A stretch of 42,094 bases of DNA, from IMG/VR virus record IMGVR_UViG_3300025009_000207, positions 1 through 42,094 of that record; one strand, given 5' to 3'. The notes under the pieces are model-generated. The model made no database searches. It was given only the letters and a program-made list of their open reading frames with translations, and was not told the origin of the DNA. Position numbers and translations under genes: made by a program. Shown here piece after piece: positions 2,916 through 35,665 of the stretch (its first letter is position 1; each line of letters opens with the position of its first letter). Source of the stretch: a virus.

Positions 2916-4955
2916 TTAAAAGTTGCGGCCAATTTCATACGCCCTACCGTAAGCGGTCACATAGAAAACAATCATCTGCCCATACTGTGACATTACTGCA
3001 TCTGCGGTGTATGCGAGCGTTCCCGTATGCGTAACGTCGTTTACAGATATTGTTGGAGATAGAGTCGGTTTGAGAACAATATTGCCGGTCCCTGAAGTGT
3101 GTTTTATTGTGACCGTGCGGGTTGTCTGATAATTCCACAAAACAAGGATGGAGTGAGGTGTCAAACCTTCAAGCGTCGTTATGGTTGTGTTAGACCCGGC
3201 AGCAGCAACCACCGCGCCGAGGGTAAGTTCCCCCATTCCTCTACAATGAAGAGTCGCAGTCGCCGTTCCGATCCCCTCAAGTTGTGCTGCTCCCACCCCT
3301 TCGATAACGTTGTCAACAAACCCATGCGGAGGCATCGAAATTATTCCAACACCTCCTTGTGATGCTGCATTGGGTCTCATGTTGCGTATGTATGGCATTC
3401 TTAGTACAACGGCGGGGTTGAAGTTGAAACCTTCGCAGTCAAGAAACTGGTTATACAGCGAATCCGCAGAATCTATTTCTACGTTAGAATCAGTGATAGT
3501 TGAGCCCGCAGCTTTACATCCTTGGAAAATATTACCAAAGCAAAGAGCACCAGAAATTAGAATTCCATCAAGACCTGCGGGGCCTTTATTTGTGCGCTGA
3601 TTTATAAATTTGTTTCCGCTTGCCCCATTGGTTAAATAGACGCTGTATTGATGGTCCTCCGTGTAGCATCCATCAAAAACAAAATCATAAGAGCGGTTTA
3701 GGTATATGGCTATCCCGCCTGTTGCACCGTAAGCGTGGTTGCTTTCCAGCAGACAACCACTAAAAACGTTACTAGATGCGTCTGTAAGCGTTCCTCCGGT
3801 GGTCCCGGCAGACTGAACGCCAGCTAGGTCATTCATGCTGATAGTCACACCATTGAAGTTGTTTGCATTTGCTGCACCGCCGTCAAAAAGCACCCCGTAA
3901 CGGTTAAACCTAAGAAACGTTTTCCCTTCGACGTGGACCTTTATTGCGCTGCGCAATCTAAGCCCTTGCTTAAACCCTTGAATAACACAGTCTCGGATTA
4001 CCGTGTTGTACGCGGTATTTACGTTGGTAGTGTCACCCGCTGCCCTCTGCATTCTTACGCCGGACCCTTGGCTTATAGTCATCTGTCCAGCGTAGTAGTT
4101 GTTAGGCCCGGTAAGCGTCAGCCCTTCAAGAGTGTGCCCACCATAGTTTTCATTTTGCGCCGTTAGGTCGATGCAATCGTGTGTCCCTGCAACGGTTATT
4201 GCGGAACCCGTTTTAGAGAACAATTTGACCTTTGTACTGGTTTCGGGGAAGTCTATGACTGCGGAAATCGGATAGTTGCCAGCCGTGAGCTCTACGGCCC
4301 CGCCGTTGGCCACCACTGCAATAGCTTTGCTTATACTAACCAAGGCGTCCTCGGCCACCGCACCAAACCACTCAGGGTAAACATGTTTCGGCCCTGAAAT
4401 GGCCCCCGTACCGTTGAAGATTTTAGCCAACGGCCACCGCGCCGGGGTGCCGGAGTAGGTTATGGTATACGCGCCATGATTAATAACCGCGCCGTTAACC
4501 GGCACAAGTTCAACGTCTGTGGTGAGGTTTGCGGCTAGCGTCTGGTCAGTGCTGTATTGGAGCGTCGCGCCGGTGCCATTGAGCGCAGCACATGCCGCCG
4601 CAAGGGAAGCGTAATCTGCCACGTCATAGGCAAGTCCGGAAGCGTCCTTAAACGCAATGTTGTCGATGTCTCCACCAGGGATTGTCGCGCCCGGTATCGG
4701 GTCTTGTCCAGGTATGATAGTTGGCGGATAGGTCAGCACCACCCTGTAAAGACCGTCACCAAATAGCTGCGCCGTGGCATTCGCCCCCAGCGTGTAAGGG
4801 TTGGCGGCTTCAGTGGTCTTGCCACGGTCAAGCCAGATGGTCTTTGGCGTTGTCGTGCCAGCGGCGTAAAAGAACGCCTGACCACCCACAACCGGCCCGG
4901 ATAGGGTGCGAACCTGTGCCAGTATGAAATCTATGCTCTGCGCGTATCTTGCCAT
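2916..4955 (-). CDS. Tailspike/tail fibre with beta-helix domain
   Basis: 679 residues. Residues 1-110 form a head-binding-like domain (AQSIDFILAQVRTLSG, AAGTTTPKTIWLDRGKTT, ATAQLFGDGLYR) shared with the paralog at 5148-7073. The middle reads as a right-handed parallel beta-helix, with repeated N-rich turns such as ANANNFNGVTISMND and SSNVFSGCLLESN, the fold of glycan-degrading tailspikes. The C-terminus is a beta-rich cap. It probably binds or cleaves host surface polysaccharide. No signal peptide, as expected for a virion protein. Confidence 0.85.
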   Translation of the reverse strand: MARYAQSIDFILAQVRTLSGPVVGGQAFFYAAGTTTPKTIWLDRGKTTEAANPYTLGANATAQLFGDGLYRVVLTYPPTIIPGQDPIPGATIPGGDIDNIAFKDASGLAYDVADYASLAAACAALNGTGATLQYSTDQTLAANLTTDVELVPVNGAVINHGAYTITYSGTPARWPLAKIFNGTGAISGPKHVYPEWFGAVAEDALVSISKAIAVVANGGAVELTAGNYPISAVIDFPETSTKVKLFSKTGSAITVAGTHDCIDLTAQNENYGGHTLEGLTLTGPNNYYAGQMTISQGSGVRMQRAAGDTTNVNTAYNTVIRDCVIQGFKQGLRLRSAIKVHVEGKTFLRFNRYGVLFDGGAANANNFNGVTISMNDLAGVQSAGTTGGTLTDASSNVFSGCLLESNHAYGATGGIAIYLNRSYDFVFDGCYTEDHQYSVYLTNGASGNKFINQRTNKGPAGLDGILISGALCFGNIFQGCKAAGSTITDSNVEIDSADSLYNQFLDCEGFNFNPAVVLRMPYIRNMRPNAASQGGVGIISMPPHGFVDNVIEGVGAAQLEGIGTATATLHCRGMGELTLGAVVAAAGSNTTITTLEGLTPHSILVLWNYQTTRTVTIKHTSGTGNIVLKPTLSPTISVNDVTHTGTLAYTADAVMSQYGQMIVFYVTAYGRAYEIGRNF

Positions 4956-34154: not shown

Positions 34155-34319
34155 TTATCTCCTACTCTTGCCGGGACGGTAACGGCTGTTATCACCGAGC
34201 CGTTGGCAGCACCGCCGCTGTATCTCCAATATCGGTGTCACCTTCACGCTCTCCCTTTCCTCGGGGGTGAGCACGCGGCCCTTGTCGAAGTGGTGGGGGG
34301 CGGGGATGGTTAGTTGCAT
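34155..34319 (-). CDS. 54-aa hypothetical protein after dcm
   Basis: ATG at 34319 with GGAGGACGCTAAC upstream, overlapping the dcm end. Reads MQLTIPAPHHFDKGRVLTPE then a basic tail (EIQRRCCQRLGDNSRYRPG). The HHFDKGR motif is distinctive but I cannot name the family. Confidence 0.65.
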   Translation of the reverse strand: MQLTIPAPHHFDKGRVLTPEERESVKVTPILEIQRRCCQRLGDNSRYRPGKSRR

Positions 34320-35029
34320 GTTAGCGTCCTCCATGCGAGCGCAGCCACTGCTGGAACCTGCCCATTGCCAATGGCTTTAGTTCGGTCCACCCTATCGGCC
34401 ATCCCATTACCTGCTCCAAGAACAAAGGGTGGGGATAAGTCGTCTTCATGCCTTGGGAAAATCGGACATGGAGCCATTCTTTTAGTTGGCTTTCCCTTTG
34501 TTTTTCGCCTCTGAAGTTCGCCCCCTTGTAATCCATTCTTACTGGTGTCGGATGCCACAATCCACATTCTGTCCCTTTGGTGCGAAGCTCCAATGTCACC
34601 GGCCCCAATAACTCCCCATTTTCCCACATACCCCAGGTAGGCAAGGTCTGCAATGACTCGTACTCCCCCCCGAATAGTGAGCGCTGGTGAATTTTCCACG
34701 AAGACGTATGCGGGTCGAACTTCGCTAATGATCCGCTGCATTTCGCCCCAAAGCCCTGAACGCTCTCCGTCGAGTCCTGCACCTTTACCCATGGCGCTGA
34801 TATCCTGGCAGGGAAACCCGCCAGAAACCACGTCAACACATCCGCGCCAAGGCTTTCCGTCAAAGGTGCAAACGTCATCCCAGACAGGGAACGGGTCGAG
34901 AATGCCGTCATTCTGTCGCTGCATAAGTATGCTAGCGGCATAGGGCTCTTGCTCGACGGCACAGACTGTGCGCCATCCGAGGAGTTTTCCGCCCAATACG
35001 CCTCCACCAGCGCCCGCGAAAAGTGCCAA
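34310..35029 (-). CDS. dcm: C5-cytosine DNA methyltransferase, 5' end rebuilt
   Basis: 239 residues if it starts at TTG 35029, which has AGGAGG 10 bases upstream; an ATG at 35101 in frame overlaps the HNH gene. Motifs are intact: I ALFAGAGGG, IV GGFPCQDIS (Cys74), VI ENS, VIII QRDRMW, X AIGNGQVP. The target recognition region is very short. The original start and first motif I codons survive upstream at 35576-35665, on the far side of an inserted HNH gene. It methylates cytosine, probably for restriction evasion. Confidence 0.85.
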   Translation of the reverse strand: MALFAGAGGGVLGGKLLGWRTVCAVEQEPYAASILMQRQNDGILDPFPVWDDVCTFDGKPWRGCVDVVSGGFPCQDISAMGKGAGLDGERSGLWGEMQRIISEVRPAYVFVENSPALTIRGGVRVIADLAYLGYVGKWGVIGAGDIGASHQRDRMWIVASDTSKNGLQGGELQRRKTKGKPTKRMAPCPIFPRHEDDLSPPFVLGAGNGMADRVDRTKAIGNGQVPAVAALAWRTLTCN

Positions 35030-35034
35030 CTCAT
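34321..35034 (-). CDS. Alternative-frame ORF overlapping dcm completely
   Basis: A 237-codon ORF in a second minus-strand frame runs along the whole dcm gene. Its ATG (35034) has the better spacing to the same AGGAGG SD. It reads MSWHFSRALVEAYWAENSS..., and ends MGWPIGWTELKPLAMGRF, a sequence type that is often annotated beside phage dcm genes. It may be an annotation shadow maintained by dcm conservation, or a true overprinted gene. The dcm frame has the catalytic motifs. Confidence 0.35.
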   Translation of the reverse strand: MSWHFSRALVEAYWAENSSDGAQSVPSSKSPMPLAYLCSDRMTAFSTRSLSGMTFAPLTESLGADVLTWFLAGFPARISAPWVKVQDSTESVQGFGAKCSGSLAKFDPHTSSWKIHQRSLFGGEYESLQTLPTWGMWENGELLGPVTLELRTKGTECGLWHPTPVRMDYKGANFRGEKQRESQLKEWLHVRFSQGMKTTYPHPLFLEQVMGWPIGWTELKPLAMGRFQQWLRSHGGR

Positions 35035-35532
35035 TTAAACCTCCTTCCTTCCTAGCAAATTCACTATTTTGTTGTCGTACTGAGCGTGGCATGATCTGCA
35101 CATCCTCCTGTAATCAGCGGGGTTATCATAATCCCCTGTCAAGTTTGCCCAATCATACGTTTTGGAACTATCTGTGGTGCCGCAAACATCACATCTTTCT
35201 GGCTGGCCAAACGCTCTATACAAACGCTTGTGCTTGCAAACCAAATTAGCTGCCGACCCTTTCCACATGTGGTTATCTGGCCCAGTTTGGTTGCGCTTTG
35301 CCGCCACCCTGGGTTTAATTCCTAACCTCTTCATAGCGTTAGCAACCACTTTCCTAGACACACCCAATGTAGCGGCACATTCATCTTGCGTCATGCCGCT
35401 GGAGTACAACTCTGCCAGTTTCATGTCATCAATCTTTGTCCTGAACTTTTCTGACGTAGCTTTTCTCCATTCGGGAGTACAACGTTTTTTTGCAGATACT
35501 GACATTTTTTGGCGAGACTCAAATTCTGGCAT
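35035..35532 (-). CDS. HNH-type endonuclease inserted in dcm
   Basis: 165 residues; AAGGGGG before the ATG. HTH in the middle (LAELYSSGMTQDECAATLG, VSRKVVANAMKRLG) and a C-terminal zinc/HNH-like region (RCDVCGTTDSSKTYDWANL, YRRMCRSCHAQYDN). It lies between a 29-codon 5' fragment of dcm and the rest of dcm, with its own strong promoter. The stop is directly followed by the recoded dcm start. Confidence 0.85.
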   Translation of the reverse strand: MPEFESRQKMSVSAKKRCTPEWRKATSEKFRTKIDDMKLAELYSSGMTQDECAATLGVSRKVVANAMKRLGIKPRVAAKRNQTGPDNHMWKGSAANLVCKHKRLYRAFGQPERCDVCGTTDSSKTYDWANLTGDYDNPADYRRMCRSCHAQYDNKIVNLLGRKEV

Positions 35533-35560
35533 AAAACCCCCTTGTTTTAAATTTAAAGGG

Positions 35561-35590
35561 TTTATACCACATTTGCTAGCACATTGTCAA
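35561..35590 (-). promoter_or_regulatory. Strong promoter of the inserted HNH gene
   Basis: On the minus strand TTGACA (35590-35585), 18 bp, TATAAA (35566-35561). The spacer contains the palindrome TGCTAGCA, whose half-sites recall TAGCA/TGCTA in the 635-663 promoter. It begins at the end of the dcm 5' fragment, so it came with or was formed by the insertion. Confidence 0.7.
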
Positions 35591-35665
35591 CCCACCTGCT
35601 CCTGCAAAGAGTGCGAGCTCTCGTAAGCCTTCATCATTGCGTTGCTGATATGCCAACTCACTCAT
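35576..35665 (-). pseudogene. 5' fragment of dcm (29 codons)
   Basis: ATG at 35665 overlaps the upstream stop (ATGA) like a normal gene. It reads MSELAYQQRNDEG then LRELALFAGAGG, the start of motif I, then LTMC and a stop where the HNH insertion begins. The same LxELALFAGAGG restarts beyond the HNH gene with different codons. Confidence 0.85.

Follow-up and report, generated by a model that had tools for sequence, protein, structure and literature searches.

An HNH endonuclease cassette at motif I of DNA methylase genes that probably brings a replacement 5' gene end

In the virus record IMGVR_UViG_3300025009_000207 of IMG/VR, a stretch of 42,094 nucleotides (nt) that was analysed whole and is termed here the window, a gene for an HNH endonuclease interrupts dcm, which encodes a C5-cytosine methyltransferase (methylase), at the codons of motif I. 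Together with related loci in other phages and in bacteria, this arrangement is best read, with a probability of roughly three in four, as a homing cassette that enters the motif I codons of methylase genes and brings with it a ribosome-binding site and a replacement 5' gene end, the gene itself being kept. Confidence in this reading rose because an occupied allele and its empty counterpart were found in the Gordonia phages Lton and CheeseTouch. A selfish nuclease aimed at an indispensable block of codons must use an intron or an intein, or spare the host gene in some other way; the present HNH family appears to spare it by bringing a differently spelled start of its target, which would make it a natural form of the recoded rescue of gene drives. 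An initial annotation of the window had interpreted the locus as a homing element that repairs its own target with a resistant copy. In outline that interpretation holds for the family; its resistance part is unproven, and it is not demonstrable from the window alone.

All parts of the locus lie on the minus strand of the window and are arranged as follows.

35576–35665, minus strand: 5' stub of the resident dcm, 29 codons (open reading frame MSELAYQQRNDEGLRELALFAGAGGLTMC), ending with motif I LFAGAGG and then LTMC-stop
35561–35590, minus strand: sigma70-like promoter TTGACA-18-TATAAA (TTGACA at 35590–35585, TATAAA at 35566–35561), starting directly 3' of the motif I GGTGGG
35528–35568, minus strand: predicted hairpin, in which the region of the -10 box pairs with the ribosome-binding site and AUG of the HNH gene
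35035–35532, minus strand: HNH endonuclease gene, 165 amino acids, with an N-terminal helix-turn-helix (residues ~26–77) and a C-terminal HNH domain (~96–163)
35040–35046, minus strand: AAGGAGG, the Shine-Dalgarno sequence of dcm, lying within the 3' end of the HNH gene
35000–35038, minus strand: second copy of the dcm 5' end, LNELALFAGAGGG, directly behind the HNH stop and starting at 35038
34310–35029, minus strand: complete dcm (C5-cytosine methyltransferase) from its likely TTG start; PF00145, E 9.9e-28; phrog_363, E 2.3e-58

This anatomy is directly observed, and the stub, the promoter, the HNH gene and the repeated motif I were all confirmed at the positions that the initial annotation had given them. 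The ATG of the stub overlaps the stop codon of the upstream gene (ATGA), which is the native position of dcm, and its N-terminus, QQRNDEGLRE, belongs to a type of 5' end known also from other contigs, for example that of locus L031 (78% identity over 88 bp). The C-terminal end of the stub, LRELALFAGAGG, is followed by LTMC and a stop, and it returns behind the HNH gene as LNELALFAGAGG. One residue differs between the two, and the 11 shared residues comprise 4 with the same codon and 7 with synonymous codons, in agreement with the earlier description of a motif repeated with one change and mostly in other codons. It had also been proposed that dcm 'resumes' behind the insertion. A second 5' end does rebuild the gene at this point, but what lies downstream is a full-length dcm and not a torso, since 70 of 78 relatives (L004–L081) begin with (M/L/V)NE at the start point of the window gene. 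Motif I was matched in 77 of these relatives, and in none of the 77 is the frame interrupted by a stop over the following 40 residues. The dcm frame is open from 35101 to 34310, the natural start-codon position reads TTA in the window, and the likeliest start is the TTG at 35029, located 10 nt past AAGGAGG; Shine-Dalgarno-like sites precede the replacement copy in many relatives too. Over 8.7 kb of the locus, two further contigs (L002 and L003) are 100% identical to the window, without a mismatch, and an assembly slip is therefore unlikely.

The HNH protein of the window matches the HNH endonucleases of phrog_8446 (E 2.5e-17), as do all 18 aligned members of its family (17 distinct). Its structure model (pLDDT 84, pTM 0.46) displays the helix-turn-helix and the HNH domain and aligns with the HNH nickase 4h9d at a middling score (Z 5.0, root mean square deviation 4.3, 66 residues). 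None of the Pfam HNH families was matched, and a Foldseek search with the model returned no match at E <= 0.001.

Recurrence of the cassette is likewise a direct observation. A first HNH search revealed, besides the window contigs, only L084 and L085, which present the layout of the window in unrelated methylases. An alignment of five HNH proteins then led to 56 viral and 4 genome loci; L099 and L105 of the 56 were dropped as repeats and the loci of the Gordonia phages Gudmit and Lton were added, giving 60 rows, 37 of which have a C5-methyltransferase gene directly downstream of the HNH gene. Removal of the duplicates L132, L139, L154 and L156 left 33 non-duplicate loci, window included; the genes of L117, L126 and L127 are without the PCQ pattern, yet match PF00145. 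A stub that ends at motif I and resembles the copy is found on the other side of the HNH gene in 17 of the 33 loci, again counting the window (for example GSLCTGY with GSLCSGY, and IISFCTGYG with IISFCTGYG), look-alikes upstream in L126 and L130 having been left out of the count. The insertion site is constant, as the stub ends at motif I in all 17, while in a random control a motif-I-like pentapeptide of any kind occurred in only 255 of 2000 intervals of 700 nt from the fetched loci. A TTGAC lies 4–6 nt from the stub core in 5 of the 17 loci (a candidate promoter starting at the junction), the HNH gene is fused in frame to the stub in L121 and L122, and in L117 it starts just past the glycine codons of the stub. 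Sixteen methylase bodies, when compared, have a median identity of 0.40, and only L114, L121 and L122 exceed 0.58 among themselves; the HNH gene has therefore entered this site in many different methylases. For the window, the proposal of a homing element with a replacement target is supported by the interruption of dcm at motif I and by the return of this layout in other, different methylases; for the recoding it is not supported, as described below.

Conservation of the protein with divergence of its codons is also observed directly. Over eight codons in each of the 17 loci, the 136 pairs of stub and copy codons comprise 41 identical, 83 synonymous and 12 nonsynonymous pairs. Had the dcm 5' end been duplicated in tandem a short time ago, around a gene inserted there, the HNH gene would be flanked by two copies of one peptide, as is seen; with only 41 of 136 codon pairs identical, and 6 of 8 in the closest pair (L113), such an origin is barely credible. 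Outside the methylases, the HNH gene is located upstream of a YqaJ recombinase gene (PF09588) in L118, L129 and L136. In L136 (2944–3780) the stub NRETFLLERKL is fused to the HNH protein and the copy NREQWLLERKV lies directly before YLGGSE. Its occurrence in different methylase genes and in one recombinase gene makes the cassette's choice of target and its immunity comparable and testable.

Alleles with and without the HNH gene at one site are present, and directly observed, in Lton and CheeseTouch, for both of which Gordonia terrae 3612 is the recorded host. In the Gordonia phages Gudmit and Lton the HNH gene lies directly upstream of the methylase gene and there is no stub, while the dcm of CheeseTouch is uninterrupted. 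Lton 2295–2446 is 86% identical to CheeseTouch 1315–1475 and Lton 2939–3146 is 94% identical to CheeseTouch 1501–1708; ~25 native nt, the first dcm codons, are exchanged in Lton for 492 nt with the HNH gene and a new 5' end, and the ATG of the HNH gene aligns with the dcm ATG of CheeseTouch. In the peptide TGSLFSGY, the Lton copy retains 0 of the 8 CheeseTouch codons and all 8 residues, both serines changing codon family, and the next 150 nt are 97% identical to CheeseTouch. The Gudmit copy keeps 1 of 8 CheeseTouch codons, with a body that is 83% identical. Compared with the uninterrupted genes of Fitzgerald, Keitabear and ReT1v-1, the copies keep 1–2 of 8 codons (bodies 65–75% identical), and uninterrupted phages of different type have 2–3 of 8 codons in common with one another (bodies 65–75%). 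By these comparisons, the copy is about as distant from every native sequence as the natives are from one another, and the notable part is the sharp step at motif I. When Gudmit was used as the query, 23 of the 30 matches listed, out of 464 phage records, started at the same base, at the ACGGCGG of motif I. A comparison with uninterrupted relatives had been suggested by the initial annotation; it succeeded for Lton, through CheeseTouch, and yielded no such relative for the phage of the window. The nearest uninterrupted phage relatives of L124 and L117 are too distant to place the boundary. Other endonuclease genes are located elsewhere in Gordonia dcm genes, in L160 (Keitabear) and L162 (Ailee), and the Ailee record joins dcm across one of them; the Keitabear and Ailee insertions were rejected as cases of the same site, their position in dcm being different.

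We infer that the HNH enzyme acts on motif I of empty alleles, that the replacement copy is immune and that the cassette homes. The enzyme would nick or cut the motif I codons of an empty dcm allele, and repair from the donor would copy the HNH gene together with the replacement 5' end. The native 5' end would stay upstream as a stub, or be lost as in Lton, and the methylase would be made from the new start, with its ribosome-binding site lying in the 3' end of the HNH gene. As the protein is kept and most codons are changed, the replacement should no longer match the presumed target, and the donor would be protected by the changed codons; because the replacement should escape in this way, an essential motif could be invaded without loss of the gene. 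At some loci the cassette would come with its own promoter for the endonuclease. Expression of the HNH gene may be held back by the leader hairpin over its ribosome-binding site and AUG, and transcripts from the local promoter would be without the 5' arm of this predicted hairpin. The folding z score of the window leader is -3.14 over 42 nt and -2.66 over 49 nt, but -1.08 over 94 nt.

Splicing had been raised as an alternative from the outset. If the HNH region were an intron, the stub would be exon 1, spliced to dcm past motif I, which would account for stubs with good start sites and for the frame breaks in many downstream copies. This is very improbable. No Rfam intron family was matched at the gathering threshold in the window or in 20 loci, which include 18 element loci with the window again among them, and hence no catalytic core of a group I or group II intron was recognised; the sole match was to the int-alpA RNA family, between the stub and the HNH gene of L116 (2878–2949). 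In addition, only ~60 nt lie between the stub and the HNH gene in the window, Lton has no 5' exon, and frame-broken genes occur also without stub or HNH gene.

Several observations weigh against the reading as a homing cassette with a replacement 5' end. The first group concerns the window, where the copy had been taken to be specially recoded. Identity between stub and copy is 0.741 (74%) over 27 nt, a value inside the natural range: among 36 distinct natural forms encoding this peptide the mean identity is 0.795, and 37% of their pairs are as low as stub and copy (35% with the window's own contig included; the counts agree). The window copy is 96% identical to the natural forms of L054 and L015, the dcm body is closest to L054 (86% over 70 codons), and the natural form nearest to the stub is that of L047 (93%). 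The stub and copy of the window thus differ no more than natural alleles do from each other, and the supposed recoding may here amount to the presence of a different natural allele. What lies behind the HNH gene is an ordinary-looking dcm allele with its own 5' end, the stub coming from another allele. The claim of special recoding was thus not upheld. With regard to the window only, and with the cassette reading of the family unaffected, it is quite possible, if a little short of an even chance, that, downstream of motif I, the resident dcm gave way to the HNH gene and an entire natural dcm of foreign origin through recombination, whether ordinary or driven by homing, without any short recoded patch. 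The high identities to L054 and L015, the different affinity of the stub and the natural level of stub-copy identity all agree with such an exchange, which taken alone accounts neither for a junction that falls at motif I in 17 loci nor for the shortness of the patch exchanged in Lton. Within the cassette mechanism, the stretch replaced in the window may correspondingly be the whole dcm, through co-conversion with a natural allele, and not the first codons only. An empty-site relative of the window phage was not found, the search with the upstream gene giving only two identical contigs and L088. The latter (IMGVR 3300025000_000461) is identical to the window from 41183 to 36046 and stops inside the gene upstream of the stub; its end is possibly due to regional variation in that sample.

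The second group concerns the family. No stub is present in 16 of the 33 loci, some of whose contigs end too near, and the codon divergence of the 17 pairs may reflect age and not selection for resistance. The Lton body is close to CheeseTouch for ~200 nt only and then diverges again. Furthermore, motif I or its immediate surroundings contain a stop or frame break in 18 of the 33 downstream genes, those of Lton and Gudmit included, and rebuilding of the gene is not obviously complete in about half of the loci.

The breaks are of a few kinds. Motif I is in frame in 13 of the 33 genes, and L120 and L130 have two extra in-frame residues. In 14, an insertion of 4–6 nt brings a stop or a break of the frame, in most cases directly after GGC-ATT or GGC-TAT. 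In L107, L112 and L125 there is one extra base after GIGGF (in GGN-TTT just past motif I), the L107 site reading TTT TGA C, which we take to resemble the RF2 +1 frameshift site, and in L116 the frame breaks slightly later than motif I. No such break affects the dcm of the window, which is intact and in frame. A first pattern, written for the main kind, retrieved 25 stretches and a second pattern 3; L179 and L191 were dropped because they have no methylase, L170, L184 and L189 repeat other rows, and addition of L096, L097, L157 and L103 gave 27 tabulated loci, 10 of them also among the 33. In the typical break (e.g. L097, L134, L166 and L174), LFSG-I/Y is followed by TGA, TAG or TAA, two more bases and GG, with the methylase body continuing in a different frame. 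A stop is retained although its codon varies, being TGA in 17 of the tabulated loci, TAG in 8 and TAA in 2; TGG, which the first pattern permits, was not seen among the stretches found. A PC motif follows the break in 23 of the 27, and L166, L172, L175 and L180 were assigned to the methylases from their first residues alone.

No HNH gene was recognised upstream in 11 of the 27 tabulated loci, within 523 nt or more of upstream sequence. The stub and ~100 nt are kept in L174 and L175, neither stub nor HNH gene is present in L167, L173, L176, L182, L188 and others, and in L169, on the same contig as L151, a stub is accompanied by no more than a partial match to the HNH. This series resembles steps in a loss of the HNH gene after which the protected gene remains. 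Before the stop-containing methylase genes of L172, L177 and L178 there are HNH genes that, by eye, resemble other families, in L178 with a stub as well.

Breaks of this kind could mean that the methylase is dead, the stub being debris and the downstream genes persisting only because insertion was recent. Such decay is favoured by the breaks in 18 of the 33 loci and by the short open frames of L128 (204 codons) and L101 (186 codons), but is nevertheless improbable. The dcm of the window has no break, and all 10 loci of the 5-nt class have body frames that are open for at least 268 codons. Before the stop, the codons of the 8 loci of the LTH(L/F)SLFSGI type differ by 130 synonymous and 24 nonsynonymous changes, and the peptide before the stop has therefore been selected as protein within this one subtype; over all 25 distinct loci, which are of mixed subtypes, the differences are 925 synonymous and 1024 nonsynonymous.

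Methylase genes with a stop inside motif I raise a concrete question of translation. It is conceivable, but doubtful, that a new type of programmed hop or frameshift carries ribosomes across the stop, and that the gap makes the gene immune to the endonuclease, in a miniature counterpart of T4 gene 60. A conserved RNA structure at the gap was not detected on 26 sites, and re-pairing of the last tRNA at a landing codon gave no good match, by eye, in the 27 tabulated sites; the gaps of the relatives span 4–6 nt, with matched codons seen only in L131. A product of -1 frameshifting, FSGI-L-T-GG, was rejected as a natural in-frame motif, as 0 of 10 pattern matches lay in a methylase.

In synthetic home-and-rescue gene drives a nuclease is carried with a recoded copy of its target. 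Such drives are engineered and operate in animals, in contrast with the present family, which is natural and whose rescue is presumed. Searches of open-licence PMC papers listed none that was recognised as describing the present arrangement in methylase genes. The initial annotation had known of no named precedent for a homing element of this design; precedents do exist. The closest are the mORFs of fungal mitochondria (Allomyces atp6; Glomus atp6, atp9, cox2 and nad3), which supply a diverged C-terminus that takes the place of the displaced native one (PMC3630166). They resemble the present family in placing an endonuclease reading frame within a gene, beside a divergent duplicate of a gene end by which the protein is largely conserved, and in leaving the native end behind (PMC3630166). 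Such a duplicate accompanies the HNH gene here as well; in the window its divergence does not go beyond that between natural alleles. In contrast, mORFs replace the 3' end, fused to the upstream gene, and encode LAGLIDADG or GIY-YIG enzymes of mitochondria (PMC3630166). Here an HNH enzyme of phages and bacteria is associated with a 5' end that has its own ribosome-binding site and start. By this analogy, the present family may be regarded as the phage 5' counterpart of mitochondrial mORFs.

T4 mobA/gene 60 provides a second parallel. There an HNH-type endonuclease splits the gene, a stop follows the take-off codon, and the bypassed coding gap is thought to be protective (PMC5009743, PMC2988022). 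The T4 gene stays split and has a 50-nt gap with matched landing codons (PMC5009743, PMC2988022), whereas the window is free of a gap. An untranslated coding gap at the target is accordingly absent from the window, with insertions of 4–6 nt in 14 of the 33 loci. Aeh1 mobE in nrdA is similar in that an HNH endonuclease occupies a critical region of a phage gene, and in that a hairpin over the ribosome-binding site is combined with a promoter placed so that local transcripts are without it (PMC2988022). For I-TevI, segB and Aeh1 mobE a hairpin over the ribosome-binding site is described whose 5' arm is missing from local-promoter transcripts (PMC2988022). Unlike the full-length gene rebuilt here, Aeh1 nrdA is expressed in the form of two polypeptides (PMC2988022).

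Two minor observations concern the methylase genes themselves. In L117 (3483–4127) the methylase frame past motif I enters a second HNH-like stretch that ends with VDLICGGFP, just before motif IV, and is perhaps a second insertion in the same gene. In the window, a second long open reading frame (34321–35034, minus strand) overlaps dcm in another frame and holds MGWPIGWTEL. A motif LMGWPxGW is found in the shifted frame, 38 nt before IGNGQVP, in many relatives, and the dcm family seems to be dual-coded.
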